A stretch of 26,150 nt of DNA from a virus, in the IMG/VR virus record IMGVR_UViG_3300043431_000032, positions 1 through 26,150 of that record; one strand, given 5' to 3'. The notes under the pieces were generated by a model. That model made no database searches. It was not told the origin of the DNA and saw nothing but the letters and a program-made list of their open reading frames with translations. Below are positions 1 to 17,728 of this stretch, one piece after another. The position numbers and the translations under genes were made by a program. Within the stretch, counting starts at the first letter, position 1; every line of letters starts with the position of its first letter.

Positions 1-75
1 AACTTCCTGTATTAACTGAGTAGCCTGTCTACAAAGTCTTCATTTGAGTTCTTGGAAGGATAACCTTCATAGAGA

Positions 76-103
76 ATTATATACCTCTTTTCTCATTTGT
101 CAA
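76..103 (-). promoter_or_regulatory. Near-consensus leftward sigma70 promoter
   Basis: On the - strand, TTGACA (103-98) is followed by a 16-base spacer and TATAAT (81-76): both hexamers match the consensus exactly. Transcription would start at about base 70 and leave the window at its left end. The predicted RNA 5' end carries the hairpin GAAGG-TTAT-CCTTC (68-55), immediately after the start; 5'-terminal hairpins are known to protect mRNAs from decay. If the genome closes into a circle, this promoter points at the - strand structural block. A 13-codon ORF begins at the predicted +1 A (70-29), but I do not claim it as a gene. Confidence 0.75.
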
Positions 104-163
104 GTACTTTATGATATTTATTTTATAGTCTTACATGATTAGAGTACAGACTCTAGAAGCTAT

Positions 164-269
164 CTTCATAGACCTCTACGACACTACGTGTCTATGTGTC
201 CATTACTTCATAGACCTCTTGTGTCCACTTCATAGCCCTCTAGAGACTCTATGACAGGCTCCTGTGTCC
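164..269. repeat. Interspersed CTTCATAGACCTCT and TGTGTCCA repeats
   Basis: CTTCATAGACCTCT occurs at 164-177 and 206-219, a one-mismatch copy CTTCATAGCCCTCT at 228-241, and a truncated copy CTTCATAGAG at 65-74 just downstream of the leftward promoter. TGTGTCCA alternates with them at 195-202, 220-227 and 262-269. The complement reads AGAGGTCTATGAAG, which resembles a ribosome binding site plus start codon, but the ORFs that follow end after 2 to 13 codons. Function unknown; it may be a protein-binding array or the decayed remains of duplicated gene starts. Confidence 0.6.
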
Positions 270-349
270 AGTTACGCTACGCTTTAGGTCTACATTAGTG
301 TTGTATTTACACAACAGTCTATCTTAGTCACTAACTTCTTTGATTTTAT

Positions 350-378
350 TAGACTTTTTAGTAATAAGTATCTATTCT
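350..378 (+). promoter_or_regulatory. Candidate rightward sigma70 promoter (weak)
   Basis: TAGACT (350-355), a 17-base spacer and TATTCT (373-378) match 4 of 6 bases at each hexamer. It is the best rightward candidate I found by eye in this region and could drive the gene block beginning at 879, but the stretch is T-rich and chance matches are likely. Confidence 0.25.
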
Positions 379-483
379 TCTATAGTCTTTTTTGTGTGCT
401 ATAGAGGCTACCACAAAAGTATTCACTCAAGCACACCCCCTCCCCCCATGTCTTTGTAGGCACTAATGACTCAGTAGTCAGTA

Positions 484-502
484 GCAAATGAGAATCATTA
501 TC
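484..502. promoter_or_regulatory. Fur-box-like palindrome
   Basis: The 19 bases at 484-502 match the classical enterobacterial Fur box (GATAATGATAATCATTATC) at 16 of 19 positions, counted by hand. The core ATGAGAAT-C-ATTATCAT is an inverted repeat with 7 of 8 arms paired. No obvious promoter overlaps it, so a role in iron-responsive control is only a possibility. It lies 24 bases before the palindromic repeat pair at 527-564. Confidence 0.45.
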
Positions 503-526
503 ATCTACTTAATAGGGGACAGATCA

Positions 527-564
527 GTGCTTAAAAAGTAAGCAATGTGCTTAAAAAGTAAGCA
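527..564. repeat. Two palindromic 18-base direct repeats (iteron-like)
   Basis: GTGCTTAAAAAGTAAGCA occurs identically at 527-544 and 547-564, a 20-base pitch, so both copies lie on the same face of the helix. Each copy is itself an inverted repeat (TGCTTA, five-base AAAAG loop, TAAGCA). A partial GTAAGCAGTG appears again inside the DnaA-box cluster near 690-699. This geometry suits a dimeric DNA-binding protein, as in iterons or operators; the binder is unknown. Confidence 0.65.
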
Positions 565-608
565 GTGAGGGGCAATGTAGCACCTAATATGGCATACTTA
601 ACAGACAC

Positions 609-646
609 CATTATAGTGCATCAGAGCCACCTCATGCACCATAATG
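609..646. repeat. 13-base inverted repeat
   Basis: CATTATAGTGCAT (609-621) and ATGCACCATAATG (634-646) are complementary at 12 of 13 positions, around a 12-base loop. A further copy of ATGCACCATG lies at 655-664. The stem could form a hairpin when single-stranded or be a protein-binding site. There is no T-run after it, so it does not look like a terminator. It sits between the palindromic repeats and the DnaA-like sites. Confidence 0.55.
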
Positions 647-675
647 AGACATAAATGCACCATGTCAGTGCTACC

Positions 676-767
676 TGTGGATAACCCTTGTAAGCAGTGG
701 ATAACTTCTATGCCTGTGGATAACTACCTACAATGCCAATAGTAGAGCCACTCACAGGTGTGTATAA
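676..767. other. Cluster of four DnaA-box-like sites (candidate origin)
   Basis: The complement of the DnaA box TTATNCACA is TGTGNATAA. Perfect matches are at 676-684, 715-723 (both TGTGGATAA) and 759-767 (TGTGTATAA), with a one-mismatch copy AGTGGATAA at 696-704. All four point the same way, all are followed by C, and start-to-start spacing is 20, 19 and 44 bases, close to whole helical turns. A chance run of four such sites in 92 bases is unlikely. Host DnaA recruitment at a phage origin is the natural reading, but the function is inferred from the motif alone. Confidence 0.6.
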
Positions 768-878
768 CCTGAGCATACCTGTCTAAGTACCTGTAAGGTT
801 CAAGCTGGCATGGTATCTGCATAGGTAAAAGCATCCGAGGCACACCGCATCGGGCAACCAGTCAAGGATCGACACACC

Positions 879-1079
879 ATGCAAGCACTCACACAGTCAA
901 CAGTTACTCAGTACATACAAGAGCACATCCAAGCAGACGCACCGTGCTCATTGTCTCATGTCACAAGCTGGGCTAAGGTTCAAGGATTAGGCGGTTCTAA
1001 AATGGTCAAGGCTATCCAAGAGCTTAAGAACGCTAGAATCATCACCATTGATGACGAATCAATCGTTGAATTAGTCTAA
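879..1079 (+). CDS. Small hypothetical early protein, 66 aa
   Basis: First gene of the rightward block; family not recognised. The product is a compact mixed-charge protein (residues 1-66) with a predicted helical N-terminus, a short glycine turn (GLGGSK, about residues 36-41) and an acidic C-terminal strand (TIDDESIVELV). Spacing of helices followed by a strand pair is compatible with a winged-helix fold, but no family motif confirms that. The start is supported by the leader AAGGATC at 864-870, which recurs before the next two genes. As the first protein made it could be a regulator or a host-takeover factor; this is inference. Confidence 0.75.
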   Translation: MQALTQSTVTQYIQEHIQADAPCSLSHVTSWAKVQGLGGSKMVKAIQELKNARIITIDDESIVELV

Positions 1080-1110
1080 TCAATACACAAACATGCAAAG
1101 GATCAGCACC

Positions 1111-1194
1111 ATGAACACCCACGAATTCATTGACCGCATTGTAATCCCTGCACTGGGCTTTGTTGCCCTTATTGTCTGCTGGATGACAGCTTAA
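1111..1194 (+). CDS. 27-aa single-pass membrane peptide
   Basis: ORF of 27 codons (MNTHEFIDRIVIPALGFVAL...) with one hydrophobic segment at about residues 10-27 and a charged N-terminus. It begins directly after AAGGATCAGCACC (1098-1110), almost the same 13 bases as before the gene at 1272, which is the strongest evidence that the start is used. Function unknown; such small inner-membrane peptides are common in phage early regions. Confidence 0.6.
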   Translation: MNTHEFIDRIVIPALGFVALIVCWMTA

Positions 1195-1271
1195 GCTACA
1201 ATCTACCGTGAAGGGTTACGAGTTAGCCCTTTGCAGTGCACTGTCGCACTATCTTACTAAGGATCAGTACC

Positions 1272-1586
1272 ATGAACAACGACCTCCAAAACCACGTAAA
1301 CGATATTGCACGCCGTATCAGTGAAGCTGACTTCGACCGTAACGATGACGGTGACGAATTCTCAGCCTTTGATTACCTTCAAGACGCTTTAGACATCGAA
1401 TACATTGTCAATAGTAAGCGTGAATACTTGGGAGCTCGCGTGCTCGTTGCCTTCGGTGGCCCTAATATCTGGGTTAACACACGTACAAATACTGTAGAGG
1501 GTCATTGGTGGGGCGATAGTGCCTCTGCTACCTTTGTGGATAATCTCGGCCTTGATGAGGCTTTGAACGAATTGTATAACTGCTAA
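1272..1586 (+). CDS. Conserved-looking phage protein, 104 aa
   Basis: Acidic protein without a recognised domain. The N-terminal half is helical and rich in Asp/Asn (residues 1-40); the centre has a beta-like stretch with repeated Trp/Gly (ARVLVAFGGPNIWVNT, then GHWWGDSAS) that resembles a small globular phage protein family I cannot name. An upstream in-frame GTG at 1236 would add 12 residues, but the ATG at 1272 is preceded by AAGGATCAGTACC (1259-1271), matching the leader of the gene at 1111, so I take 1272. A hairpin (AAGGGTTA 1211-1218, TAGCCCTT 1224-1231) and the palindrome CAGTGCACTG (1234-1243) lie in the preceding gap. Confidence 0.8.
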   Translation: MNNDLQNHVNDIARRISEADFDRNDDGDEFSAFDYLQDALDIEYIVNSKREYLGARVLVAFGGPNIWVNTRTNTVEGHWWGDSASATFVDNLGLDEALNELYNC

Positions 1587-1598
1587 TCAAGGGACACT

Positions 1599-1772
1599 AT
1601 GAGAACAGATTTCAAAGTTTATAAGCGTAAGATTCACGTATATTTCAAGAAGTCAGACGGGCTTTGGTATGCGTGGAGTACTAACGCCTTCAAAACATGT
1701 CGTGATGCAGTAGCAGACGCAAAGCAACAACGCCCACAATGGGACTTTAAAGCCTCTTTCGCAAAGGATTGA
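1599..1772 (+). CDS. 57-aa hypothetical protein
   Basis: ORF of 57 codons, basic and aromatic-rich (MRTDFKVYKRKIHVYFKK then WYAWST and WDF). Alternating charged and aromatic residues at positions 5-28 suggest a small beta hairpin or sheet followed by a helix (CRDAVADAKQQ, about 34-44). Preceded by AAGGGACACT. It starts 12 bases after the previous stop and ends 4 bases before the next start, which fits a real gene in a packed operon. Function unknown. Confidence 0.7.
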   Translation: MRTDFKVYKRKIHVYFKKSDGLWYAWSTNAFKTCRDAVADAKQQRPQWDFKASFAKD

Positions 1773-1776
1773 CACT

Positions 1777-1947
1777 ATGCTAAACGATAATTACATCATT
1801 GAAGTGACGCCGAGTCTCTGTTCCTATGTGTCAGCCTACATCAACGAGGAATTGACACGAGGGGCAACGATTGACAAATACACCATTCAAGACGCATTAG
1901 ACGCCTTTCTAGGCGGTGCGTCTATCGAATCAACTAACGAGGAGTAA
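1777..1947 (+). CDS. 56-aa acidic hypothetical protein
   Basis: ORF of 56 codons (MLNDNYIIEVTPSLCSYV...). Predicted strand, then two helices, with an acidic end (ASIESTNEE). The binding site is AAAGGATTGAC, lying across the previous stop. No family recognised. Its size, charge and close spacing match its neighbours, a run of small early proteins often involved in host interaction (general inference, no direct evidence). Confidence 0.65.
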   Translation: MLNDNYIIEVTPSLCSYVSAYINEELTRGATIDKYTIQDALDAFLGGASIESTNEE

Positions 1948-1953
1948 TCGATC

Positions 1954-2202
1954 ATGCTAAGCAATAACGACTTTATAAGCCTAGAACGTAGATTATGGGC
2001 CGAAGGCAACCCATTAGCGGACGAATTAGCGTCTACACGTGACGAGCTACTGTACTTACTGTCTCAATGTAAGAATATACTGGAAAAGTATTCACCTATG
2101 CTTAATAAACAGGCAGGTGGTGATCTAGATTACATGAGAGAATGGGATAACTTCGGTGACTCTATCGACAATTTGTCTTATGACTTAGGGATTGATCTAT
2201 GA
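1954..2202 (+). CDS. 82-aa helical acidic protein
   Basis: Mostly helical, acidic protein (MLSNNDFISLERRLWAEGNP..., ending SYDLGIDL). Two long amphipathic helices are likely at residues 4-15 and 22-45, the second with leucine spacing (LLYLLSQCKNILEK). Preceded by ACGAGGAGTAATCG, with GGAG as a good binding site inside the previous gene's stop context. It ends in an ATGA overlap with the next gene, implying translational coupling. No domain recognised. Confidence 0.75.
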   Translation: MLSNNDFISLERRLWAEGNPLADELASTRDELLYLLSQCKNILEKYSPMLNKQAGGDLDYMREWDNFGDSIDNLSYDLGIDL

Positions 2203-2435
2203 ATGACAATAAAAACCTTATGTGTCCTGCTTGTGGGCGTGATAATTGGGACTGGGCTAATGTAGGGTTACATCATGCGGTTCAATGTACCGACTGTGGC
2301 TTTGTTTACAGTGCTCCACAAAAGCCTTGGGTTGAGATAACGAAGAGGCAGATTGACGACTGTCTCAAACATAGCGACAATTACGACTTCGCATGGGCTA
2401 TTGAGGCCATATGTAAGAAAAACAACGGGTATTGA
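2199..2435 (+). CDS. Small zinc-ribbon protein, 78 aa
   Basis: Two CxxC pairs, CPAC (residues 9-12) and CTDC (30-33), about 17 residues apart, with aromatic residues between them, make a typical single zinc ribbon. The C-terminal part (35-78) is mixed charge and probably helical. Similar one-ribbon proteins are common in tailed phages and may bind nucleic acid or protein; nothing here decides which. Its ATG overlaps the stop of the 1954 gene (ATGA). Confidence 0.8.
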   Translation: MNDNKNLMCPACGRDNWDWANVGLHHAVQCTDCGFVYSAPQKPWVEITKRQIDDCLKHSDNYDFAWAIEAICKKNNGY

Positions 2436-2489
2436 TATGACAATGATTTGTATCCTATTTGCTATTGATTTGATAACGGAGCATGACTT

Positions 2490-2621
2490 GTGGTAATAAA
2501 ACAACACATTAACAACTGGCCTTTTCCTACTAAGGATAACCCTTTGACACCATGGACACCTGAACAACAGAAGAAGTGGGCAGAGGAACAACTCAAGAAC
2601 ATGCCTCCAAGCCCTTTATAG
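2490..2621 (+). CDS. 43-aa basic, proline/tryptophan-rich protein (GTG start)
   Basis: An in-frame stop lies at 2484-2486, so the first usable codon is the GTG at 2490, with GGAG at 2478-2481, eight bases upstream. The 43 residues look like a real small protein: NNWPFPTKDNP, then TPWTPEQQKKWAEEQLKNM, with proline/tryptophan turns and a charged helix. No ATG exists in the frame before the last few residues. A 19-codon ORF (2437-2496) precedes it, ends in the same place and may simply be a coupling leader. Function unknown. Confidence 0.5.
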   Translation: MVIKQHINNWPFPTKDNPLTPWTPEQQKKWAEEQLKNMPPSPL

Positions 2622-2678
2622 GCTCACCAAGGCCTCTAATTTCATCAACCTATACCCTGACTAGGGTGGAGACTTAAA

Positions 2679-2942
2679 ATGCACTGTACAGCTTGTGATA
2701 AATTGTTAACGGATTATGAGGCAACCCGAAAGGATGCGCATACGTTCAAGTTTATCGACCTCTGTAAGACTTGTTTTGAAGATATTAAACCTTTTGTATC
2801 AGTCATTGATCGTAAGGATTTAATCACGGAACAGGACTTAGACACCATAGACGATGACGATACGGACACAGGGGTTTCCCTAGAAGACGTTGATACCTAT
2901 ATAGACTATGTAGTAGACTCTAGAGAGGACTATGATGTCTAA
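2679..2942 (+). CDS. Zinc-finger protein with acidic tail, 87 aa
   Basis: An N-terminal CTAC (residues 3-6) pairs with CKTC (29-32) to form a small zinc-binding module; the rest is strikingly acidic (IDDDDTDTG around 58-66, then DVDTYIDYVVDSREDYDV). Short proteins with an N-terminal CxxC..CxxC knuckle and acidic tail occur in many phages without assigned function. Binding site GGTGGAGAC is 5 to 10 bases before the ATG. A hairpin ACCCT-GACT-AGGGT (2654-2667) lies just before that site and could modulate its access. Confidence 0.8.
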   Translation: MHCTACDKLLTDYEATRKDAHTFKFIDLCKTCFEDIKPFVSVIDRKDLITEQDLDTIDDDDTDTGVSLEDVDTYIDYVVDSREDYDV

Positions 2943-3018
2943 GAACTTCTATGACATTAAAGCATTCATTAAAGTAAATACTACTTTATTGTTTATCTTT
3001 AAACCTACATTAAAGTAA
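2932..3018 (+). CDS. Possible 28-aa peptide overlapping the previous gene
   Basis: ORF MMSKNFYDIKAFIK... overlaps the last 11 bases of the 2679 gene in another frame. It is basic with a hydrophobic centre (TTLLFIF). Overlap and location fit translational coupling, but there is no separate binding site and the reading could be chance. AAAGTA-aatac-TACTTT (about 2973-2989) inside it forms a small hairpin followed by T-rich sequence. Confidence 0.3.
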   Translation: MMSKNFYDIKAFIKVNTTLLFIFKPTLK

Positions 3019-3030
3019 AGAGGGGATAAC

Positions 3031-3198
3031 ATGAAACAGAAAGAAGATGATAAGACAATCGATATATTTGATGTCTATGACCAAGAAGAAGCGTACTATG
3101 CTCACACGATCAATGATGTCGTTGAATTGATGATTGAGTACGGATACGTAAAAGTATTTACCGATCTCTTTGAGAGAGCAAGGGAGGTTAACAAATGA
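3031..3198 (+). CDS. 55-aa acidic hypothetical protein
   Basis: ORF of 55 codons beginning MKQKEDDKTIDIFDVYD, with a strong binding site (AGAGGGGATAAC) directly upstream. Acidic N-terminal half, then a helix (INDVVELMIEYG, about 30-41) and a basic tail. It ends in an ATGA overlap with the 18-codon ORF at 3195. No family recognised; the clear ribosome binding site is the main support. Confidence 0.7.
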   Translation: MKQKEDDKTIDIFDVYDQEEAYYAHTINDVVELMIEYGYVKVFTDLFERAREVNK

Positions 3199-3251
3199 TT
3201 GTGTCTCTATTCGTATTTGTCTTAACTTTGATAAAGGTGTCTTTGAAATGA
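3195..3251 (+). CDS. Possible 18-aa hydrophobic linking peptide
   Basis: A micro-ORF (MIVSLFVFVLTLIKVSLK) starts in an ATGA overlap with the 3031 gene and stops in another ATGA overlap with the 3248 gene. It is almost entirely hydrophobic with two lysines at the end, like a single membrane-spanning peptide. It may be a real peptide or only a translational relay that carries ribosomes to 3248, whose own binding site is poor. Confidence 0.4.
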   Translation: MIVSLFVFVLTLIKVSLK

Positions 3252-3670
3252 AAATCGTAATTAACAAGTGTTACGGTGGCTTCGGATTGTCCGATGAAGC
3301 TATGAAACGCTATGCCGAATTGAAAGGCATCACGCTGTACCCTGAGAAGGATAGGTCTGGTCTTTACTCTAACTATTACACAGTGCCAGCACATAAGCGT
3401 GTAGCACGTATCGAAGGTGAGCAGTTCTATGCGTTGTCGATGGAGGAGCGAAGTGCTTACAACAAACAATGTGCTAGTGAATCTCTGTACGACAGAGACA
3501 TTCCACGAGATGACCCAACCTTGGTACAAGTGGTGAAAGAACTTGGTAAGAAGGCATCTGGTAGGTTTGCTAGTCTTGCTGTTGTCAATGTTCCCGATGG
3601 TGTGTCATGGGAGATTGACGAGTACGATGGACTTGAGCAGGTAGCTGAAACACATAGAACTTGGAGTTAA
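3248..3670 (+). CDS. Conserved phage protein of unknown function, 140 aa
   Basis: The N-terminus MKIVINKCYGGFGLSDEA is a very recognisable opening of a protein family widespread in tailed phages, with no known function. It continues with an amphipathic helix (MKRYAELKG) and a mid-region with charged turns (YDRDIPRDDPTLVQVVKELGKKASG, about residues 80-105), then an acidic strand (VPDGVSWEIDEYDGLEQVAE) that ends the protein. The frame is open further upstream to a GTG/ATG near 3170, but that extension would cross two coupled genes, and the family start MKIVIN fits 3248. No catalytic motif is visible. Confidence 0.85.
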   Translation: MKIVINKCYGGFGLSDEAMKRYAELKGITLYPEKDRSGLYSNYYTVPAHKRVARIEGEQFYALSMEERSAYNKQCASESLYDRDIPRDDPTLVQVVKELGKKASGRFASLAVVNVPDGVSWEIDEYDGLEQVAETHRTWS

Positions 3671-3674
3671 CAAA

Positions 3675-3878
3675 ATGAAAGCAACAATTGAATATGATCT
3701 GTCTAATTCGGCAGAAGCCTACGCATATAAATGCTCACAGAAGGCTTTAGAAGCCTGTCAGATGCTGGAGTCTCTAAAGAGTCTTACGCAAGGGTACACA
3801 GCGTACAAAGGGGTCTCTGAGAGCGTTCTAGCGGACATCATCTCAGACTTGTCTAAGTGGGAGGACGTGAAGCTATGA
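3675..3878 (+). CDS. 67-aa helical hypothetical protein
   Basis: Small, mainly helical protein with aromatic and Ala/Ser spacing (AEAYAYKCSQKALEACQMLESLKSL, about residues 13-37), then a second helix ending WEDVKL. It has two cysteines in the first helix. It starts 4 bases after the previous gene and ends in an ATGA overlap with the 3875 gene. No domain recognised. Confidence 0.75.
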   Translation: MKATIEYDLSNSAEAYAYKCSQKALEACQMLESLKSLTQGYTAYKGVSESVLADIISDLSKWEDVKL

Positions 3879-4489
3879 AAGACGCATTGAAGCTGGCACT
3901 TGAGGCGTTGGAACGATACCAAGTTAAGCGGCAAGACTTTGAACGGTTTGCAGATGTAATAATCGCCATCAAAGAAGCCTTGGCACAGCCAGAGCAGGAG
4001 CCTGTGGCGTGGATTTCTGTGAAGGATGCTCTGCCAAAAGCGGTTCGTGGTTTGTCCTACAAAAAGAGCATTACAGAAACTGTGCTTGTCCGACATTCCG
4101 ACCGACCAGATTATCCAATCACTGCCCATGCAGTTCTCGGTGAAGGTCTTGGTGCTGGCATTTCGATTTTTACAGAAGGAGCATCAGAGTATCCAGAAAT
4201 TGCTTGGTACTCAGCATCTTCTGATCTGAATAACCCGTTCGGATTGAGGCATGATGATTACGAGCGATATTTACCACGGATATTTGGTTCAAAGATTACG
4301 CACTGGATGCCAATCACCACCCCATATGTGGCTACGCCACGGCCACAGCGCAAGCCATTAACTCGTGAAGAAATTGCAGACCTTCGACATAAATTCGGTA
4401 TCACTTCTGATGGTCGCGGGATTAAAGAGTTTACGCAAGTTGAGGGTTTTGTTCGCGCCACCGAATCCGCCCACGGCATTAAGGAGTAA
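3875..4489 (+). CDS. DUF551-like modular phage protein, 204 aa
   Basis: Three modules. Residues 1-44 are a helical segment (KDALKLALEALERY ... AIKEALAQPEQEPVAW) that begins many phage proteins of mosaic type. The middle has the DUF551 signature: WISVKDALP (about 48-56), a variable strand region and the closing ITHWMPI (about 145-151). The end (about 155-204) carries TPRPQRKPLTREEIADLRHKFG, a second portable module. The ATG at 3875 is in the ATGA overlap with the 3675 gene; an in-frame alternative at 3857 lies inside that gene. The base sequence of the TPRPQR segment is repeated at 4625-4644. Function of DUF551 is unknown. Confidence 0.8.
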   Translation: MKDALKLALEALERYQVKRQDFERFADVIIAIKEALAQPEQEPVAWISVKDALPKAVRGLSYKKSITETVLVRHSDRPDYPITAHAVLGEGLGAGISIFTEGASEYPEIAWYSASSDLNNPFGLRHDDYERYLPRIFGSKITHWMPITTPYVATPRPQRKPLTREEIADLRHKFGITSDGRGIKEFTQVEGFVRATESAHGIKE

Positions 4490-4492
4490 GAC

Positions 4493-4678
4493 ATGAGCAA
4501 AGAATTTGAACAAGCATACAAAGATTATTGCGAAGGCAAGGTAGAAGACCCAGCAGAATTGTTGCGTGTCATGTGGAAAGAAAATAAAGAAGCAATTGAC
4601 ACATTCATAGCTAAAGGGGGTTTTTACGCCACGGCCACAGCGCACATGGTTTGGGCTGACGGAAGAAGAAGTAATTGA
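4493..4678 (+). CDS. Accessory ORF, apparently frameshifted, 61 aa as read
   Basis: The first 44 codons (MSKEFEQAYKDYCEGK ... TFIAKGGF) look normal: an acidic helical start, then a helix with MWKENKEAID. After the run AAAGGGGGTTTTT (4613-4625) the frame reads an unlikely ATATAHMVWADGRRSN and stops. The adjacent frame, from 4626, continues sensibly for 46 codons (TPRPQR ... LTEEEVIDLW) to 4766 and matches the terminal module of the preceding gene. One base fewer in the G5/T5 run would give one 90-aa protein. It may be a true indel, an assembly error in the homopolymer or programmed frameshifting. The binding site is AAGGAGTAAGAC. Confidence 0.7.
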   Translation: MSKEFEQAYKDYCEGKVEDPAELLRVMWKENKEAIDTFIAKGGFYATATAHMVWADGRRSN

Positions 4679-4766
4679 TTTGTGGCCTGATTTGATAATG
4701 CACCGACACACATATCAGTTTTGGCAGAACTTAGAAGCCAAACTACGCGAAAAGAATTCGCTTTAA
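4626..4766 (+). pseudogene. Out-of-frame C-terminal module of the 4493 gene
   Basis: In the frame one base ahead of the 4493 ORF, 46 codons run TPRPQRTWFGLTEEEVIDLW ... LEAKLREKNSL and stop at 4764-4766. TPRPQR followed by LTxEEIxDL is the same module as at the end of the DUF551-like protein. There is no start codon with a binding site just before it, so it is readable only by a ribosome that shifts frame on the G5/T5 run, or if the true sequence lacks one base there. Confidence 0.65.
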
Positions 4767-4778
4767 GGAGAAGAACAC

Positions 4779-4808
4779 ATGAACCATAGTGATGGGAGTA
4801 AGCTATGA
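4779..4808 (+). CDS. 9-aa peptide duplicating the next gene's start
   Basis: ATG at 4779 follows a strong AAGGAG site (4765-4770). It encodes MNHSDGSKL and ends in an ATGA overlap with the gene at 4805, whose N-terminus is MSHSDGGKG. Four of the six base differences are synonymous third-position changes. It is either a functional leader peptide or the remnant of a previous copy of that gene left by recombination. Confidence 0.4.
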   Translation: MNHSDGSKL

Positions 4809-5074
4809 GCCATAGCGACGGAGGTAAAGGTTCAGGAAGGCGTAAGGAAGACGCAAGTAAGGTTCGAGATAATTGGGATCTAATCTTTGGTAAAGGAAAG
4901 ACTATGATTGATGATGAAAACAACATTGAAGACTTTGACGAGGACGATGAGGAACAAGTTTGCTCATGGTGTGGTGGATGTGGCGAAGGTATGTATGACG
5001 GTGCAGCTTGCCGAAAGTGTCACGGAACAGGCGTAGAACCTAGTGAAAGGGACTGTGATGACTCAGACTATTAA
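4805..5074 (+). CDS. Two-module small protein with DnaJ-like zinc motif, 89 aa
   Basis: Residues 1-33 (SHSDGGKGSGRRKED, then NWDLIFGKG) match a short phage protein type that usually stands alone and ends just after FGK. Residues 34-53 are an acidic linker (EDFDEDDEEQ). Residues 54-78 carry CSWCGGCGEG and CRKCHGTG, repeats of the CxxCxGxG type seen in DnaJ zinc fingers, here one pair only. An internal ATG at 4903 with AAAGGA upstream could make the zinc part separately. It starts in an ATGA overlap with the 9-codon ORF. It appears to be a fusion of two small genes; role unknown. Confidence 0.75.
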   Translation: MSHSDGGKGSGRRKEDASKVRDNWDLIFGKGKTMIDDENNIEDFDEDDEEQVCSWCGGCGEGMYDGAACRKCHGTGVEPSERDCDDSDY

Positions 5075-5297
5075 GAGCGTAAAGGACGTGAAGTCCGTAC
5101 ACATCAAAGAGTTCTGGCCTTACCAGTACGTCAAGCCTGATCGTAGAGTCTTTAAACGTGAGACTATGGACAGAGCTAATGCTCGTAAGCGTGAGATATA
5201 CCATCAAAAAAAGAAGCTCATTGGCTTGCAAGTCTTTGAGATGGACATTGATATTTGTCATAGGCTGAACAATGCAACCACTAAAAATAGCAAGTAA
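5058..5297 (+). CDS. 79-aa basic hypothetical protein
   Basis: Basic protein (VKSVHIKEFWPYQYVKPDRR, then a helical run of Arg/Lys, ARKREIYHQKKKL at about 53-65) without recognised domain; nucleic-acid contact is plausible from charge. The frame is open to a GTG at 5043, but the ATG at 5058 has AAAGGGA about seven bases upstream, so I use it. The start lies within the last codons of the 4805 gene, and the end overlaps the primase-helicase by 26 bases. Confidence 0.7.
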   Translation: MTQTIKSVKDVKSVHIKEFWPYQYVKPDRRVFKRETMDRANARKREIYHQKKKLIGLQVFEMDIDICHRLNNATTKNSK

Positions 5298-6891
5298 GTT
5301 TATCAAGCACGTAGCCTGTGAGCACTGCGGTAGCTCAGATGGTTCATCTCTGTATGACGATGGGCATCAATATTGCCACGTATGTCACGCTTACACGGCC
5401 TCAGAAGGAACTGAGTTTCGTGCTCAACAAGACGTACAACGTCAGTCAACAACTAAGGTATTTCAGATGAAACAGACAGGGGAAGTTAAGGCTATCGTAG
5501 ATCGAGGTATCTCACGTGATACATGTGAATACTTTGGTGTTACTCAAGATGTAGGTAGGCACTACTACCCTTATTTCGACGAAACAGGGACTAAGGTGGC
5601 TGAAAAGATCCGATCTGTAGAGAATAAGACGTTCTCCATTGAAGGTAATTTCAATAAAGCTACGCTCTTTGGGCAGAATCTGTTCCAGAAACAAGGTAAG
5701 TACATCACCATCGTTGAAGGTGAGCTAGACGCTCTGGCTAGTTATCAGATGACAGGCAGCAAATGGCCTACTGTGAGCATCCGTACTGGGGCTTCAGCGG
5801 CTGTTAAAGACTGCAAGGCTCAGTATGAGTACCTAGATAGCTTCGAGACTATCGTTATCTGTTTTGACGGTGATGAAGTTGGACAGAAGGCTGCTAAGGA
5901 TGTGGCTGAACTGTTCGGAAACAAGGTTAAGATTGTTAAACATTTAAAGGAGTGCAAAGATGCCTGTGATTACCTCATTAACGGACGAGGAGCTGAATAC
6001 GTTAACCAGTGGTGGAGAGCTGAGAGTTACGTACCCGATGGGATCGTCCAAGCCTCAACACTTTGGGACAGCGTATCTGCATCTGAACCAGTCGCAGAAG
6101 CCTTCTATCCCTTCAAAGGACTTAACGAACTCCTCTACGGAATACGATCAGCTGAACTCATTACGGTCACAGCTGGATCGGGTCTCGGAAAGAGTCAATT
6201 CTTACGAGAAATCTTATATCGAATCTTGGAAACGACAGGATGGAATATTGGCGGCATGTTCCTCGAGGAAAGTGTGCGGAAGACTGCTCGGAGCATCATG
6301 TCCCTTCATGCTAACAAAAAGTTGCACTTGCCCGACACTCAAGTCACAGAACGGGAATTGAAGGAGGCATTTGATGCTACACTCGGAACTAATCGGGTCT
6401 ATCTCTTTGACCATTTTGGCTCTCTTGCCATTGATAATGTTCTCAATCGTATACGGTATATGGCACGTGCTTGTGACTGTCGCGTGGTCTTTCTTGACCA
6501 TATCAGTCTTGTTGTCTCTGGTATGGATGGGAATGATGAGCGCAAGTCTATTGACGTCTTGATGACTCGACTGCGTACACTTGTACAAGAAACAGGTATT
6601 ACACTCATTTGTGTTAGTCACTTGAAACGACCTAGCACATCTAACAAAGGACATGAAGACGGTGAATCGGTATCCTTATCTCAGTTACGTGGCTCTGGTG
6701 CTATTGCTCAGTTGTCTGACGCTGTTATCACTCTTGAACGAAACTCCATGAGCGACGATCCTGAAGTACGTCATACTACAAAGGTAGCAGTGGCTAAGAA
6801 TCGCTACAACGGACTCACAGGGCCAGCTTGCTCTTTGAAGTACGATATGGACACAGGTAGAATGATTGAAGTAACAATGGAGGAGCTATGA
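5272..6891 (+). CDS. DNA primase-helicase (T7 gp4-like), 539 aa
   Basis: Bifunctional replication enzyme that makes RNA primers and unwinds DNA ahead of the polymerase. Domains: zinc-binding C16-C19-C35-C38 for template recognition; TOPRIM primase with VEGELDALA (148-156) and CFDGDEVGQKAA (197-208), carrying acidic metal ligands; RecA-like DnaB/gp4 helicase with Walker A GSGLGKS (302-308), Walker B-type FLDHIS (407-412), the DNA-contact motif around RGSGAIAQLSD (473-483) and an Arg near 511 as candidate arginine finger. Length is close to T7 gp4 (566 aa). An internal Met66 (5467) with AAGG eight bases upstream sits where T7 starts its zinc-less short form. It overlaps both neighbours. Confidence 0.96.
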   Translation: MQPLKIASKFIKHVACEHCGSSDGSSLYDDGHQYCHVCHAYTASEGTEFRAQQDVQRQSTTKVFQMKQTGEVKAIVDRGISRDTCEYFGVTQDVGRHYYPYFDETGTKVAEKIRSVENKTFSIEGNFNKATLFGQNLFQKQGKYITIVEGELDALASYQMTGSKWPTVSIRTGASAAVKDCKAQYEYLDSFETIVICFDGDEVGQKAAKDVAELFGNKVKIVKHLKECKDACDYLINGRGAEYVNQWWRAESYVPDGIVQASTLWDSVSASEPVAEAFYPFKGLNELLYGIRSAELITVTAGSGLGKSQFLREILYRILETTGWNIGGMFLEESVRKTARSIMSLHANKKLHLPDTQVTERELKEAFDATLGTNRVYLFDHFGSLAIDNVLNRIRYMARACDCRVVFLDHISLVVSGMDGNDERKSIDVLMTRLRTLVQETGITLICVSHLKRPSTSNKGHEDGESVSLSQLRGSGAIAQLSDAVITLERNSMSDDPEVRHTTKVAVAKNRYNGLTGPACSLKYDMDTGRMIEVTMEEL

Positions 6892-7193
6892 ACACACCGC
6901 ACAAACACGCAGAGCTTATCAAGGCATGGGCCGATGACGCAGAGATTGAATGGTACGACAGTTCGCCAAGAGCGCACCGTTGGAAAGGCATGGAAGGACA
7001 CAATCCATCATGGTGTGACAGCGTAAATTTTCGGGTTAAACCAGAGCCAGTCCCTGATTTTAAAAAAAGTTATTTCGTACATGGAAATCATTTCCAAGGT
7101 TTGCACATATCAGCAAGGTTAGATGAAGCACACAATCTGACTCTTACGTTTGATGGTGAGACAGGAAAACTTAAATCAGCGGAGGTGCTATGA
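6888..7193 (+). CDS. Conserved small phage protein (HKHAELIKAWADGAEI type), 101 aa
   Basis: The opening HKHAELIKAWADDAEIEW is typical of a protein family found in many tailed phages, usually followed by a Trp-rich loop (HRWKGMEGHNPSWCD) and a strand ending in RVKPEP; all three are here (residues 5-54). The remainder (55-101) is strand-rich. Function unknown. The ATG overlaps the primase-helicase stop (ATGA), and its own stop overlaps the membrane protein at 7190 in the same way, so it is translated as part of the replication operon. Confidence 0.8.
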   Translation: MNTPHKHAELIKAWADDAEIEWYDSSPRAHRWKGMEGHNPSWCDSVNFRVKPEPVPDFKKSYFVHGNHFQGLHISARLDEAHNLTLTFDGETGKLKSAEVL

Positions 7194-7336
7194 TTGAAAT
7201 GATTATCGTGGGTACTATCGGTATCGGCTACTCCGTTGTAGGTGTGCTACAGTGGCTCAAAGGTGACATGGGTGCTGGTATCATGTGGTTAGGATACTCA
7301 TTTGCCCAGATCGGCTTATTCTTAAACTTAAAGTAA
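7190..7336 (+). CDS. 48-aa two-pass membrane protein
   Basis: The ORF MIEMIIVGTIGIGYSVVGVL... contains two hydrophobic segments, about residues 4-21 and 29-47, separated by a short charged loop (WLKGDMGAG). It has a strong GGAGG binding site (7181-7185) and an ATGA overlap with the gene before it, and ends 3 bases before the polymerase start. Location between helicase and polymerase suggests a membrane component near replication, but function is unknown. Confidence 0.7.
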   Translation: MIEMIIVGTIGIGYSVVGVLQWLKGDMGAGIMWLGYSFAQIGLFLNLK

Positions 7337-7339
7337 AAC

Positions 7340-9037
7340 ATGAAACGCATTGCTATTGACATCGAGACAAACATGGCACATGACGTCATCCATCTCGCTG
7401 TTACGCAGGACATTGACACAGGGGAAGTAAAGACATGGAAAGCTCCAACAGGACTTTGGGACTACTTAAAGGACGCTACGTTGATCGCAGCTCACAACGG
7501 AATATCCTTCGACTTTCCGATCTTAAACAAGCTCTGGAAGACCAAGATTGGATTGAAGCAAGCATACGACACACTCGTAGTATCAAGGCTTCTAGAGCCA
7601 ACGAGGGAGAACGGACACTCTCTGGACGCATGGGGAAAAGAGCTAGGAGTTCAGAAGCTGGACTACAAAGCAACTTGGCAGTGGATGATGAACAGAAGGG
7701 AAGAATATGATGGAGAATCCTTTGATAACCCTATTGATGTACTGCTTGATTTTTATTGTCGGCGTGACGTTAGTGTTCTCTGCGGTTTATTTTGTCATCT
7801 CGATGCTTTGGTTGACGCTCAGTCTTTTGGGCAAGACTCACTTGTTCTTGAGCACAATGTAGCAGCTATCATCAAGAAGCAAGAAACCAATGGATTCAAG
7901 CTCGATGTAGTTCACGCTACTTGTCTCTTGTCAGATTTGAAACTCAAGATGGGTGTCATCTACGACAAGATGCAGGAGCTGTATCCACCTTACGAGGTTG
8001 AACGTATCTCAGAGAAGACAGGGAAGACTTTGAAGCCTGAACTGATTGCCTTCAATCCAGCATCTCGACAACAGATAGCTGAGAAGTTAATCGGCTTAGG
8101 TTGGAAGCCTACTAAGAAGACTGAGAAAGGTCAAGTCATCGTAGATGAAGGTACTCTCATGGGTTTGAAGTATCCTATCGCTCAGTTGATTGCTGAGTAC
8201 ATGATGCTTCAAAAGCGCATAGGACAGATTGAGTCATGGTTAGAGGTCATAGGTAACGATGGTAGGGTACACGGTAGAGTCATCACCAATGGGGCTGTAA
8301 CAGGCCGTTGTACGCACTCTAAGCCGAATATGGCTCAAATACCTAACACCTCTAGTCCTTACGGAAAAGAGTGTCGTCAGTGTTGGACAGTGGAAGAAGG
8401 AAACGTACTTGTAGGTGTTGATCTATCGGGTATTGAACTCCGCTGCTTTGCTCACTACCTAAACGATGAAGAATACATTAAGGAAGTTGTATATGGTGAT
8501 GTCCATACAAGGAACCAAAAAGCTTTTGGTGTTGATTCACGAAACGATGCAAAGACAGTACTATACGCCACATTGTATGGGGCTTCGTCTTCCAAGATCG
8601 GGACAATTATTGGTGCTAATGCCAAAAGAGGGCAAACCATTATTGATAATTTTGAGCGAAGCGTTCCTGCGTATGCCAAACTCAAAAGAAAGGTTGCTAC
8701 GTATGCTACAAAAGGATGGATATGGGGTCTTGATGGAAGAAAGTTATGGATTAGGTCAGAGCATAGCGCCCTCAACACTCTTCTCCAATCGGCTGGTGCC
8801 ATTATTGCTAAACAATGGGTTGTATGTTTTGATAAGAAACTCTCTAAGTCAAAGATTCCATACAAGCTCGTTGCTTTCGTCCACGATGAAGTGTGTATTG
8901 AAACCGCCCCTCAGTATGCAGAAGAAGTTAAAGAACTTGTGATAGAATCTGCTAAAGAAGCAGGAGAGATTCTAAAGTTTCGCTGCCCTGTAGGAGCTGA
9001 GGGACATGTTGGAAGGACTTGGGAAGATGTGCATTAA
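7340..9037 (+). CDS. Family A DNA polymerase with 3'-5' exonuclease, 565 aa
   Basis: Replicative polymerase. Exonuclease: DIET (D7, E9), HNGISFDF (52-59, with D58) and YCRRDV (139-144, D143). Polymerase: motif A DLSGIELR (361-368), motif B RNDAKTVLYATLYG (401-414; K405, Y409, Y413) and motif C VHDEV (514-518, D516). All metal ligands are present. Tyr409 aligns with T7 Y526, the O-helix residue that lets T7 polymerase accept dideoxynucleotides. At 565 aa it is shorter than T7 gp5 (704), probably lacking or shortening the thumb insertions, including the thioredoxin-binding loop. The start at 7340 follows the membrane protein directly. Confidence 0.96.
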   Translation: MKRIAIDIETNMAHDVIHLAVTQDIDTGEVKTWKAPTGLWDYLKDATLIAAHNGISFDFPILNKLWKTKIGLKQAYDTLVVSRLLEPTRENGHSLDAWGKELGVQKLDYKATWQWMMNRREEYDGESFDNPIDVLLDFYCRRDVSVLCGLFCHLDALVDAQSFGQDSLVLEHNVAAIIKKQETNGFKLDVVHATCLLSDLKLKMGVIYDKMQELYPPYEVERISEKTGKTLKPELIAFNPASRQQIAEKLIGLGWKPTKKTEKGQVIVDEGTLMGLKYPIAQLIAEYMMLQKRIGQIESWLEVIGNDGRVHGRVITNGAVTGRCTHSKPNMAQIPNTSSPYGKECRQCWTVEEGNVLVGVDLSGIELRCFAHYLNDEEYIKEVVYGDVHTRNQKAFGVDSRNDAKTVLYATLYGASSSKIGTIIGANAKRGQTIIDNFERSVPAYAKLKRKVATYATKGWIWGLDGRKLWIRSEHSALNTLLQSAGAIIAKQWVVCFDKKLSKSKIPYKLVAFVHDEVCIETAPQYAEEVKELVIESAKEAGEILKFRCPVGAEGHVGRTWEDVH

Positions 9038-9434
9038 AGTTTGTAAGCAATGCGGCTGGAAAGCTTCTTTGGACTTCTTTCAAAAAGACGTTTCAAAGAA
9101 AGATGGAGTACGTCCTGAATGTAAAAAATGTACAGCAGATAATCGGAAGAAACGTTATAGTGCTGAGACAAACAGGAAAAACAACATGGAGAAGAATTTT
9201 GGTAAAGGTGTTTTGGACACCTATCAAAGACTTTTCGATGAGCAAAAAGGCGTGTGTGCTATTTGTAAGTCCCCTGAGAACGGGCGGTACAAACACCTAA
9301 GTGTAGATCATTGTCACGATACAGGAAAGATTCGAGGTCTTCTGTGTAATAATTGCAACAGAGGTATTGGTCTTTTAAAAGATAGTCCTGAACTGTTAAA
9401 GAATGCGGTAGGATACCTTGAGGAAAACGAATGA
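9027..9434 (+). CDS. Endonuclease VII-like HNH nuclease, 135 aa
   Basis: Residues 65-132 match the recombination endonuclease VII family (T4 gp49): LFDEQKGVCAIC, then LSVDHCHDTGKIRGLLCNNC, NRGIGLLKDSPELLKNAVGYL. Zinc ligands C77/C80/C107/C110 and catalytic D94, H95, H97, N111 are all present. An N-terminal CKQC (6-9) with CKKC (32-35) is an extra zinc knuckle, as often seen in free-standing mobile forms. An ATG at 9006 would add 7 residues; GGAAGGA at 9011-9017 favours 9027. It may resolve DNA branches or act as a homing nuclease. It overlaps the polymerase by 11 bases. Confidence 0.9.
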   Translation: MCIKVCKQCGWKASLDFFQKDVSKKDGVRPECKKCTADNRKKRYSAETNRKNNMEKNFGKGVLDTYQRLFDEQKGVCAICKSPENGRYKHLSVDHCHDTGKIRGLLCNNCNRGIGLLKDSPELLKNAVGYLEENE

Positions 9435-9616
9435 TTGATAAAACAGATAAATTGAAATCTCAGATTATGGTGAACATAAGTGATGAGTCATTTATGATCC
9501 TACACTCTGATGACATGGATATTCTCGATGTATACTTGGTGCTCTCAGCAGCCCTTGATTACATTGAAGGTGAAGCGGAAGCTGTCTCTCGTAAAGAAGG
9601 CAGTTACTTGCAGTGA
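9431..9616 (+). CDS. 61-aa acidic hypothetical protein
   Basis: Acidic, probably helical product (SDESFMILHSDDMDILDVY, then a helix YIEGEAEAVSRKEG). It overlaps the endonuclease VII-like gene by ATGA. Nothing in the sequence identifies a family. It is the last gene before the 200-base structured interval. Confidence 0.65.
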   Translation: MIDKTDKLKSQIMVNISDESFMILHSDDMDILDVYLVLSAALDYIEGEAEAVSRKEGSYLQ

Positions 9617-9624
9617 TAGAATAC

Positions 9625-9680
9625 GGATAAGTGCTGGTCGCAGAGAGGACGCTCTGTTGGTTCGATTCCAACCTTATCCA
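9625..9680 (+). ncRNA. tRNA-like element, 56 bases, degenerate or minimal
   Basis: GGATAAG (9625-9631) pairs with CTTATCC (9673-9679) as a perfect 7-bp acceptor stem; TG follows at the usual position 8-9; GTTGG-TTCGATT-CCAAC (9656-9672) is a canonical 5-bp T arm with TTCGATT loop; A9680 is the discriminator. Between them only 22 bases remain: either a 3-bp D-like stem CTG-GTCG-CAG plus AGAG-GACG-CTCT, or one stem CAGAG-AGGACG-CTCTG. Neither gives a normal 7-base anticodon loop. It is therefore a tRNA remnant, a minimal armless tRNA or a tRNA mimic. No CCA is encoded. Confidence 0.55.
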
Positions 9681-9696
9681 TCAATCAGCTTGATCC

Positions 9697-9749
9697 GACA
9701 CCTCCTCGTCGTTTTCGTGGAGAAGGCCCTCGCAATGGGCGGCAGTGTC
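9697..9749 (+). ncRNA. Putative multi-branched structured RNA
   Basis: GACAC (9697-9701) pairs with GTGTC (9745-9749), enclosing two hairpins: CTCC-T-CG (9702-9708) with CG-T-GGAG (9716-9722), a helix with one T-T mismatch, and GCCC (9726-9729) with GGGC (9737-9740) around a 7-base loop TCGCAAT. It lies directly after the tRNA-like element in a non-coding gap and before a terminator-like hairpin. Hand folding only; no known family recognised. Confidence 0.4.
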
Positions 9750-9776
9750 CCTGTAGTATGGTAAGCAGGGTTTTAT
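9749..9776 (+). terminator. Terminator- or attenuator-like hairpin before the SSB gene
   Basis: CCCTG (9749-9753) pairs with CAGGG (9766-9770) around a 12-base loop, followed directly by TTTTATT. The stem is short for a terminator, so an attenuator or partial stop is as likely. C9749 is also the last base of the GTGTC strand of the branched RNA, so the two folds could compete. A second small hairpin GAGC-TACG-GCTC lies at 9782-9793. Confidence 0.35.
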
Positions 9777-9816
9777 TAACGGAGCTACGGCTCAATCCTT
9801 AAAAGGAAAAGAAAGT

Positions 9817-10233
9817 ATGTCAGATCTTAAACCAGTTAAAATCCAAGGTGAACTCTTCTGGAGCAAATGGATGGCTGAATTCAACAAAGCATTCAACACG
9901 GACAATGACCGTTACGAATGTACCATCGGTAACATCTCCGATGACGATGCAGCTAAGCTCACAGGCTTGGGTATCAAAGTGAAGCACAAGGATTCAATGG
10001 GTAACTTCATTGTCGCTAAGAGCAAATACTTGTTCAAGCCTACTGATGACAACCTCAAGGAAGTCAACATCGCTGACTTGGGTAACGGCTCTAAGTGTGT
10101 TGCTATCGTTGGCTCATACACTCATCGTATGTCCTCTAAGCATGGCAATGCACCATCTCTGAAGACAATCATGGTGACTGAAGTTAAGACTTACGTCCCT
10201 GAGCCAGCTACTGCGGATGACGAGGCTCTGTAA
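9817..10233 (+). CDS. Probable ssDNA-binding protein (T7 gp2.5-like role), 138 aa
   Basis: Pattern of a phage single-strand binding protein: a beta-rich body starting KPVKIQGELFWSKWM, with a K/H-rich segment (GIKVKHKDSMGNFIVAKSKY, about 52-71) for DNA contact, and a short acidic C-terminal tail ending ATADDEAL. Acidic tails of this type recruit polymerase and helicase in T7. No OB-fold motif is decisive, so the call rests on the overall pattern and the position between polymerase and exonuclease genes. The binding site is AAAAGGAAAAG. It joins the next gene by TAATG overlap. Confidence 0.65.
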   Translation: MSDLKPVKIQGELFWSKWMAEFNKAFNTDNDRYECTIGNISDDDAAKLTGLGIKVKHKDSMGNFIVAKSKYLFKPTDDNLKEVNIADLGNGSKCVAIVGSYTHRMSSKHGNAPSLKTIMVTEVKTYVPEPATADDEAL

Positions 10234-10430
10234 TGTTTAACAAACTTGCTTACTTTAAGTGCGTGTCGCTTATCATGCTTGCAGGTAAAGTCTTTGTTGA
10301 CGATACTATGTTTTCATGGTTTGACATCTTTGGTATGGTCCTGATCCCTGCTGTGTTTTCAATGTTGCTTTCTGAGTTGGACAAAAAGCTCGACTCATGG
10401 ACAACTAAAGTAGATGGAAAAGACCTCTAA
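10233..10430 (+). CDS. 65-aa small membrane protein
   Basis: Two hydrophobic segments (CVSLIMLAGKVFV, residues 10-22, and FDIFGMVLIPAVFSMLL, about 30-46), then a charged tail (ELDKKLDSWTTKVDGKDL). Start and preceding stop share one base (TAATG), which implies coupled translation with the SSB-like gene. No family recognised. Confidence 0.7.
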   Translation: MFNKLAYFKCVSLIMLAGKVFVDDTMFSWFDIFGMVLIPAVFSMLLSELDKKLDSWTTKVDGKDL

Positions 10431-10462
10431 GCCTAAGCTAGCTATCATCCAAAGGAAACAAA

Positions 10463-10645
10463 ATGTTTAATATTTTAAACTCTGTGGTAAAAGCCGCCGT
10501 GTCTGTAGTAGAGATCCCCGTTGCTGTTGTTGCTGATGTTGTTACATTAGGCGGCGCAGTAAACGATAAGGATCAACCTTACACAGCTACTGCTGTTGAG
10601 CATCTTGTGCAGAACGTACAAGACGCTGCAAATCCTCGTAAATAA
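10463..10645 (+). CDS. 60-aa hydrophobic-start phage protein
   Basis: Begins MFNILNSVVKAAVSVVEIPVAVVADVVTLG, an amphipathic/hydrophobic N-terminal half (1-32) with repeated Val/Ala, then a polar tail (NDKDQPYTATAVEHLVQNVQDAANPRK). The same general layout, a Val/Ala-rich helix with a polar end, occurs in small phage proteins of unknown role. The binding site is AAAGGAAAC, nine bases before the ATG. It is the last gene before the candidate promoter at 10649. Confidence 0.7.
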   Translation: MFNILNSVVKAAVSVVEIPVAVVADVVTLGGAVNDKDQPYTATAVEHLVQNVQDAANPRK

Positions 10646-10648
10646 GTA

Positions 10649-10677
10649 TTGACTTTTCCTACTCTATATGCTACAGT
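10649..10677 (+). promoter_or_regulatory. Candidate sigma70 promoter with extended -10
   Basis: TTGACT (10649-10654; 5 of 6 to the -35 consensus), a 17-base spacer and TACAGT (10672-10677; 4 of 6 to the -10 consensus), with TG one base before the -10 (extended -10). It lies in the 59-base gap before the HNH endonuclease at 10705 and would also feed the exonuclease, ThyX and RNR genes downstream. Confidence 0.55.
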
Positions 10678-10704
10678 GTAGGTATTATAGTTTAGGAGAA
10701 GTTA

Positions 10705-11184
10705 ATGTTTACACGGTTGATTAAAGAGCGAGATGAGCAAGGGAAGATAAAAAGCTATGAGTTGTTGTTTGACGGGAAGCCTATATCAGACGGTAAAAAG
10801 TATTGCCCTTCGTGCACACAGCTTTTAGATAAATCTTCTTTTTCAGCTAAGGGTAACGCTTGTAAGACCTGCGCTACGCAAAGAGCTAAGAACTGGAGAG
10901 TTGTTAAAGAAAACAATCCAGATTGGCGAAAACAGCGTAACGCACAGATTGCAGAGAATAGCCGAAAGTTGAAACGTAAGATGGTTGAGTTGAAGGGAGA
11001 CTGTTGCAGCAAGTGTGGTAATAAATACCCAGATGTTGTATACGATTTTCATCATCTTGACCCATCTCAGAAAGACTTTAACATTGGTAGTTCTAGGAAC
11101 TGGCCTAAGATTGAAAAGGAGTTAGCAAAATGTGTAATGTTATGTGCAAACTGTCACCGTATCGAGCACTTCCATAATGACTGA
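10705..11184 (+). CDS. Free-standing HNH endonuclease, 159 aa
   Basis: Zinc knuckle CPSC (34-37) with CKTC (53-56), then a basic linker (KNWRVV ... WRKQRN) and an HNH domain: CSKC (101-104), YDFHHLDPSQKDFNI (113-127; H116, H117), and CANCHRIEH (147-155). This is a typical mobile HNH endonuclease that cuts intron- or gene-less alleles in co-infecting phages. A promoter candidate precedes it (10649-10677) and the binding site TTTAGGAGAAG is strong, so it may be expressed independently. Its end overlaps the 5'-3' exonuclease start by 8 bases. Confidence 0.9.
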   Translation: MFTRLIKERDEQGKIKSYELLFDGKPISDGKKYCPSCTQLLDKSSFSAKGNACKTCATQRAKNWRVVKENNPDWRKQRNAQIAENSRKLKRKMVELKGDCCSKCGNKYPDVVYDFHHLDPSQKDFNIGSSRNWPKIEKELAKCVMLCANCHRIEHFHND

Positions 11185-11863: not shown

Positions 11864-11866
11864 ACA

Positions 11867-12100
11867 ATGAAGTTCCGTAAGAAGCCTGTGATAATTGAAG
11901 CTATGCAATTTTGGATTAACACTCATAATGGATGGCCTCAAGGTGTTTATAAGGACGACACAAGTCCAACTGGCTATAAGATCGACACACTTGAAGGAAG
12001 TCACGAAGTTACCGAAGGGGATTGGATTATTACAGGAGTAAAAGGTGAACGTTACCCTTGCAAGCCTGACATCTTTGACATGACTTATGAGGCGTGTTAA
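11867..12100 (+). CDS. Conserved small phage protein (KFRKKPVIIEAMQ type), 77 aa
   Basis: The start MKFRKKPVIIEAMQFW is a widely shared opening in tailed phages and prophages; the family's closing part, EGDWIITGVKGERYPCKPDIFDMTYE (about 49-74), with G-D-W and Y-P-C-K-P-D-I-F, is present. Function unknown. It starts 3 bases after the exonuclease stop, with AAAGGAGTAAAC as binding site. Confidence 0.85.
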   Translation: MKFRKKPVIIEAMQFWINTHNGWPQGVYKDDTSPTGYKIDTLEGSHEVTEGDWIITGVKGERYPCKPDIFDMTYEAC

Positions 12101-12103
12101 AGG

Positions 12104-12172
12104 ATGGCTACGAAGAGAACCAAACCAAACGTGCCCTCATCTTTCCACAGCTCTACAAGAGCGAGGAGCTGA
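12104..12172 (+). CDS. 22-aa peptide resembling the next gene's start
   Basis: ATG at 12104 sits 3 bases after the previous stop. The peptide begins MATKRTKPNVPSSF and aligns with MTAKKLKPSIPMSF at the start of the metallopeptidase-like gene at 12177; 7 of 14 positions are identical. After residue 14 the resemblance stops (HSSTRARS). It is either an expressed peptide or the remnant of an older copy of the gene. There is no good separate binding site. Confidence 0.35.
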   Translation: MATKRTKPNVPSSFHSSTRARS

Positions 12173-12176
12173 ATAG

Positions 12177-12461: not shown

Positions 12462-12474
12462 GGACTAGACTGTA

Positions 12475-17716: not shown

Positions 17717-17728
17717 GAAAGGTAAGTA

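Follow-up and report, generated by a model that had tools for sequence, protein, structure and literature searches.

We observed that DnaA boxes, a sigma-54 promoter and NtrC-like dyads lie together in one intergenic region near the left end of a virus record from an uncultured phage (about 26 kb; the whole 26,150-nt stretch analysed is called the window throughout), and their conservation and layout could be followed in its relatives. On this comparison, window positions 338-832 may form a host-DnaA-dependent origin combined with an early-control region, serving a T7-type replisome in a phage with no detectable RNA polymerase of its own, and we give this reading about an even chance. Host DnaA would bind the box array at 676-767 and help to open the nearby AT-rich, T-rich stretch, and the phage's own primase-helicase would load on the opened stretch, so that copying could start. 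Host RNA polymerase with sigma-54 would transcribe the rightward replication operon from 806-821, and a host enhancer-binding protein, most likely NtrC, would activate it from the upstream dyads. The binding, the opening, the order of events and the identity of the activator are what we infer from this arrangement. Host DnaA, RpoN and NtrC are assumed: bacterial genomes searched with the helicase and terminase gave no close relative, and no tRNA genes were found as a host clue.

Table 1. Features of the control region and of the first genes of the rightward operon (window coordinates)
Feature	Sequence	Position	Strand	Remarks
Perfect sigma-70 consensus promoter	TTGACA-16-TATAAT	76-103	-	Faces left, toward the terminase and structural genes of relatives
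AT-rich, T-rich tract, candidate unwinding element		338-405		Up to 82% A+T in 50 bp (343-392)
Conserved C-tract, family landmark	CCCCCTCCCCCC	436-447		84 loci have a similar tract before the helicase
Conserved block	GTGAGGGGCAATGTAGCACCTA	565-586		Family-wide, also in relatives without the sigma-54 site
NtrC-like dyad	GACACCATTATAGTGCA	604-620		3 mismatches
NtrC-like dyad	TGCACCATAATGAGACA	635-651		3 mismatches
NtrC-like dyad	TGCACCATGTCAGTGCT	656-672		3 mismatches; distances to the other two dyads 21 and 52 bp; directly before box 1
DnaA box 1, strong consensus	TGTGGATAA	676-684	+	Exact in the window, G009, L009 and L032 at -130 from the sigma-54 site
DnaA box 2, one mismatch	AGTGGATAA	696-704	+	TGTGGATAT in G009
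DnaA box 3, strong consensus	TGTGGATAA	715-723	+	Exact at -91 in the window, G009, L009, L032 and L073
DnaA box 4, TTATNCACA class	TGTGTATAA	759-767	+	TGTGGATAA in G009
Putative sigma-54 (-24/-12) promoter of the rightward replication operon	TGGCATGGTATCTGCA	806-821	+	Matrix rank 1; equivalent place in 36 loci
First ORF of the rightward operon, 66 aa		879-1079	+	No Pfam match
T7-type primase-helicase		5272-6891	+	Toprim, DnaB_C, T7 helicase/primase N-terminal domain
Family A DNA polymerase		7340-9037	+	

The helicase of the window is shared, at 69-90% identity, by relatives of about 36-38 kb, seven of which have exact terminal repeats of 58-127 bases, the mark of a near-complete, self-closing assembly. 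In these relatives the left end of the window corresponds to an intergenic region between divergent genes: terminase and structural genes run leftward, and small genes, then replication genes, run rightward. The rightward operon of the window encodes the primase-helicase, family A polymerase, an exonuclease, endonuclease I, ThyX and a B12-type ribonucleotide reductase, and the T7-like primase-helicase, family A polymerase and endonuclease I are traits of the T7 type. The single-subunit RNA polymerase typical of T7 (Autographiviridae; PF00940) was not found in 15 records of the family, several of them near-complete by their terminal repeats, or in 8 distant ones, while the control, phage 285P, gave a match. 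The idea that a T7 RNA polymerase is hidden in the missing part of the genome was rejected, as none was found in the near-complete-looking relatives. A phage-coded DnaA or sigma-54 activator was also rejected, since PF08299 and PF00158 had no match in the 15 family records; bacterial controls did match.

The preliminary description had reported four co-oriented DnaA-box-like sites in a gene-free stretch, and this is what we found. The boxes begin at 676, 696, 715 and 759 (spacings 20/19/44), three of them fit TTATNCACA and the one at 696 is one mismatch off, and no gene-like ORF occurs over 1-878. The accompanying term 'helically phased' holds only roughly in the window, where spacings of 20/19/44 bp come to about 1.9, 1.8 and 4.2 turns; in relatives, boxes on the same strand were most often spaced by 11, 22, 12 and 33 bp (44 distinct arrays). 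Similar clusters elsewhere at chance frequency, which the same description had named as evidence against its proposal, did not appear: the window has no second cluster, and at least two exact TTATNCACA sites within 92 bp occurred in none of 400 first-order Markov simulations of it. The remaining exact TGTGNATAA matches (1535, 11636 and 15641) were isolated, and all fell within called ORFs. One-mismatch matches across the whole window were at chance level (22 against 27.8 expected), so the DnaA signal consists in the clustering. Chance in a single genome as the source of the cluster was rejected on the simulations and on the relatives.

Among relatives with a 42-100% identical primase-helicase we observed 2-10 boxes at the equivalent place, and in most of them boxes occupy the corresponding intergenic region with differing designs. 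Exact boxes numbered 50 in 23 of 36 loci, as against 0.165 in shuffles, a cluster above chance of the kind seen at oriC-like origins; like all our counts, these come from related, hence non-independent, sequences and are inflated by kinship, and the viral records compared may be chimeric or cut. Of the exact boxes in 11 genomes, 18 belonged to the 380-bp control region and 7 to all remaining sequence, a density about 226-fold higher in the region. We gave the layouts class letters of our own, with boundaries drawn after viewing the alignments. The window's class (the window, G009, L009, L032 and, more distantly, L073 and L075) has four co-oriented boxes, with offsets from the promoter kept within the window's subtype at -130/-110/-91/-47 (window and G009) against -110/-91/-72/-37 in L073, where the last box is shifted by 10 bp. 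Class B (for example G003, G006 and G014) has TTATCCACA-17-TGTGCATAA-8-TTATCCACA and another box about 100 bp upstream, class F (G011, L070, L072, L080 and L083) has inverted and direct boxes across about 100 bp, and class D has one or two boxes. No DnaA cluster was found in this region in the close relatives of class A. In the distant relatives (helicase 45-50%) an AT-rich stretch and C-tract are immediately followed by arrays of 8-10 boxes.

Spacings of 11, 22 and 33 bp look like those of DnaA arrays and would be hard to explain without DnaA. The place of the boxes is kept despite changes in orientation and number, and this, with the 11-bp pitch in relatives, supports the view that the sites in the window behave as real DnaA boxes. 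Judged by these patterns, DnaA very likely binds the array. It might be argued that the boxes are functionless remnants of a control region that came down from an ancestor or a plasmid, as boxes 2 and 4 differ among close relatives and the cluster is missing in some. We consider this highly improbable, because exact boxes survive rearrangements of number, strand and spacing and are rare elsewhere in those genomes.

The sigma-54 promoter and NtrC-like enhancers of this region, as well as the relatives that have either module alone, had been overlooked in the earlier reading. The element TGGCAY-N6-TGCW was spotted just upstream of the first early gene when relatives were compared side by side, and it corresponds, at promoter position, to the -24/-12 consensus TGGCACG-N4-TTGC quoted in PMC3224663. 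For scoring we used a matrix derived from 29 sites mapped in Salmonella (PMC3844500), which is the one independent measure here, the DnaA and sigma-54 patterns having been chosen after viewing the phage alignments. The window site ranked first over the whole window, with a score of 19.2 against 7.5 for the next best. The element was the best genome-wide match in all 11 genomes that have it (16.6-20.1, with a training median of 19.1). Over all loci, the stretch preceding the helicase contained 49 matches, compared with 3 at other places in 1.15 Mb; control contigs, which were partly selected for TGGCAC, had 0.6 matches per 37 kb. A scan of viral contigs for an NtrC dyad plus TGGCAC was abandoned, since the pattern was too loose and its matches were mostly chance; its contigs served only as part of the control set.

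The middle of the element varies while TGGCA and TGC are fixed, which would be the sigma-54 pattern, although the ends are partly imposed by the search pattern. Transcription of the rightward operon would then start near 832. In G001 and G005 the best-scoring site faces leftward, within the corresponding region. Nine class A loci have a second, leftward site exactly 167 bp away, and two other loci have one about 178 bp away, one turn more. Upstream of the helicase in the distant clade (L475, L476, L479 and others) we also observed two or three tandem sigma-54-like promoters, often 56 bp apart.

Dyads near TGCACCANNNTGGTGCA, which we take to be the NtrC consensus and on which the assignment to NtrC depends, numbered 63, spread over 31 of the 36 loci, where shuffled sequence gave 1.08; many of the dyads have 2-3 mismatches. 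They are commonly spaced 21 or 30-31 bp apart (2-3 helical turns) and lie about 90-210 bp upstream of the sigma-54 element, as phased activator sites do at promoters served by sigma-54 and an enhancer-binding protein. Upstream of the early promoter of L054, G010 and L077, the NtrC-like dyads give way to inverted repeats of another kind (TGTCGG...CCGTCA, GTGTCAAAATATTGACA), so a different activator is possible in those relatives. Elsewhere in this stretch (528-564) the palindrome TGCTTAAAAAGTAAGCA occurs twice, 20 bp apart, with similar copies in G008, L053 and L054; at its place G009 has seven 9-bp CTTACAANN-like repeats.

It is also conceivable that TGGCAY-N6-TGCW is the site of some phage protein and not a sigma-54 promoter. 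The promoter is a predicted one and its activator a presumed one, and class F replaces the element by another promoter-like sequence. We hold this to be most unlikely, since the scores equal those of the mapped Salmonella sites, the part that varies is the part that sigma-54 tolerates, and phased dyads stand at enhancer distance.

An AT-rich stretch followed by a C4-5-T-C5-7 tract was observed upstream of the helicase in 84 loci, with helicase identity down to 42%. In the window some 280 bp separate the conserved AT-rich tract from box 1, whereas tract and boxes are close together in the distant clade, and the boxes of the window are about 230 bp from the C-tract, further than in that clade. 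The GC-skew minimum of nine near-complete relatives fell in the control region or up to about 2 kb downstream, a position confounded by gene direction, and we gave it little weight for the origin because this is also where the genes diverge. The weakest step of our proposal is origin function, given class A without a cluster, the roughly 230 bp between array and C-tract, and a skew that may reflect only gene direction. At the far side of the region a perfect sigma-70 promoter faces the terminase side, so the divergent operons seem to use different sigma factors.

We observed that the DnaA and sigma-54 elements could occur apart. Class A has the promoter and dyads with no DnaA cluster, class F has the DnaA cluster with no sigma-54 site, and the window has both. 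We therefore regard them as separable cassettes downstream of the AT-rich/C-tract element, which argues for a separate part played by DnaA and against that of a mere helper of the sigma-54 promoter. As class A lacks the cluster, it is not obligatory for replication across the family. In the 84 loci with the AT-rich/C-tract element, a sigma-54 core was present in 14 of 33 with at least three boxes and in 25 of 36 without boxes, a weak mutual exclusion (14/19 against 25/11, Fisher p 0.03) among sequences that are not independent.

Regulation by DnaA and titration of DnaA are both serious rivals to an origin. As a regulator, DnaA would control transcription of the early operon, or of the divergent pair, as one of several swappable host-regulator cassettes. 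The boxes of the window's subtype do have the NtrC-like dyads on one side and the sigma-54 site on the other, with offsets that are conserved, and the cassette that follows the C-tract may consist of boxes, of sigma-54 sites or of both, subject to the weak exclusion just given. We nevertheless find this unlikely, though by no means negligible, since class B boxes are upstream of the dyads, class F keeps its boxes though the sigma-54 site and dyads are gone, and arrays of 8-10 boxes with an 11-bp pitch are more origin-like than operator-like. Those large arrays also bear on titration, in which the array would be a decoy that soaks up host DnaA and halts new rounds of host chromosome replication. 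Each genome brings 2-10 strong boxes, a number that phage copy number would multiply, and several relatives far exceed what a simple operator needs. A decoy might be placed at any position, but the arrays keep to one site, beside the AT-rich/C-tract element and the early promoter, and the window has only 3-4 boxes, so we think a decoy distinctly unlikely. Of the preliminary proposal that a DnaA-responsive origin or a decoy lies beside a T7-like primase-helicase and polymerase, the boxes themselves have stood up; their service as an origin opener, and not as regulator or decoy, is the part that we infer.

Returning to the origin and early-control region, we know of no settled account of how T7-like phages without their own RNA polymerase start replication and early transcription. 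The region offers a concrete, testable answer for the start of infection, in a group from many environmental samples. From the elements described, a large group of uncultured aquatic phages would appear to take their cue for infection from two control systems of the host of which T7 makes no use. We tentatively suggest, while rating it somewhat below an even chance, that in a large aquatic phage clade without detectable phage RNA polymerase two host systems have taken over both tasks of T7 RNA polymerase, early transcription as well as origin firing. They would act on one region through cassettes that can be exchanged: DnaA would open the origin, and sigma-54, together with an activator that responds to nitrogen stress, would drive early transcription. 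The nitrogen and replication state of the host would in that case gate infection, and cassette exchange at one fixed site would let the re-wiring of a phage to new hosts be watched. DnaA origins and sigma-54 promoters are each of a known kind. In the open PMC texts searched we found neither a phage early operon with a sigma-54 promoter nor a DnaA origin and sigma-54 promoter jointly in the early region of a T7-replisome phage without RNA polymerase.

When compared with bacterial oriC-type DnaA origins, the region is alike in combining several TTATCCACA boxes (in relatives with an 11-bp pitch) with a GC-rich tract and an AT-rich stretch, all between the same genes and close to a GC-skew minimum that is confounded by gene direction. 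It differs in belonging to a phage with its own primase-helicase and polymerase and no dnaA gene, in the putative sigma-54 promoter alongside, and in that the opening is only presumed. The primary origin of T7 consists of the phi1.1A/B promoters and an AT-rich region. Here, too, a T7-like primase-helicase, family A polymerase and endonuclease I occur, and an AT-rich stretch lies beside promoters, which are tandem in some distant relatives; however, no T7 RNA polymerase was found, host-type DnaA boxes and sigma-54 sites take the place of phage promoters, and the promoters point away from the AT-rich stretch.

The premise of the preliminary description that T7-type phages do not usually use DnaA is not absolute. 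Shigella phage VB_Ship_A7, an enterobacterial, true T7-like phage with an RNA polymerase, has four TTATCCACA in about 110 bp near one end (L174 13350-13463; record 39704-40058), and a 355-bp query from it matched Escherichia phage P483 over its full length. Roseophage SIO1 and the pelagiphages HTVC104P and HTVC115P share T7-like replication genes with the window, and HTVC115P and SIO1 also nucleotide-metabolism genes. They differ in that neither a DnaA cluster nor a sigma-54 site was found in the stretches scanned (SIO1 whole, HTVC115P 1-50000 of 55 kb, HTVC104P 1-20000); another marine cousin, MW202701, had no DnaA cluster in the 50 of 55 kb scanned.

The early promoter resembles NtrC/sigma-54 promoters such as enterobacterial glnA in its -24/-12 element and its paired dyads, which are separated by 2-3 turns and mostly precede the predicted start by about 130-190 bp, but it would drive a replication operon in a phage, and its dyads are imperfect and its activator presumed. 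The nearest idea is that of the cyanophage NtcA promoters, phage promoters bearing sites for a host nitrogen regulator (PMC3037559). Those involve another regulator and sigma factor and occur at several sites per genome in T4-like cyanophages, whereas here the site is at one place, in the early region. A sigma-54 early promoter would tie infection to the nitrogen state of the host, as has been proposed for cyanophages with that other regulator.
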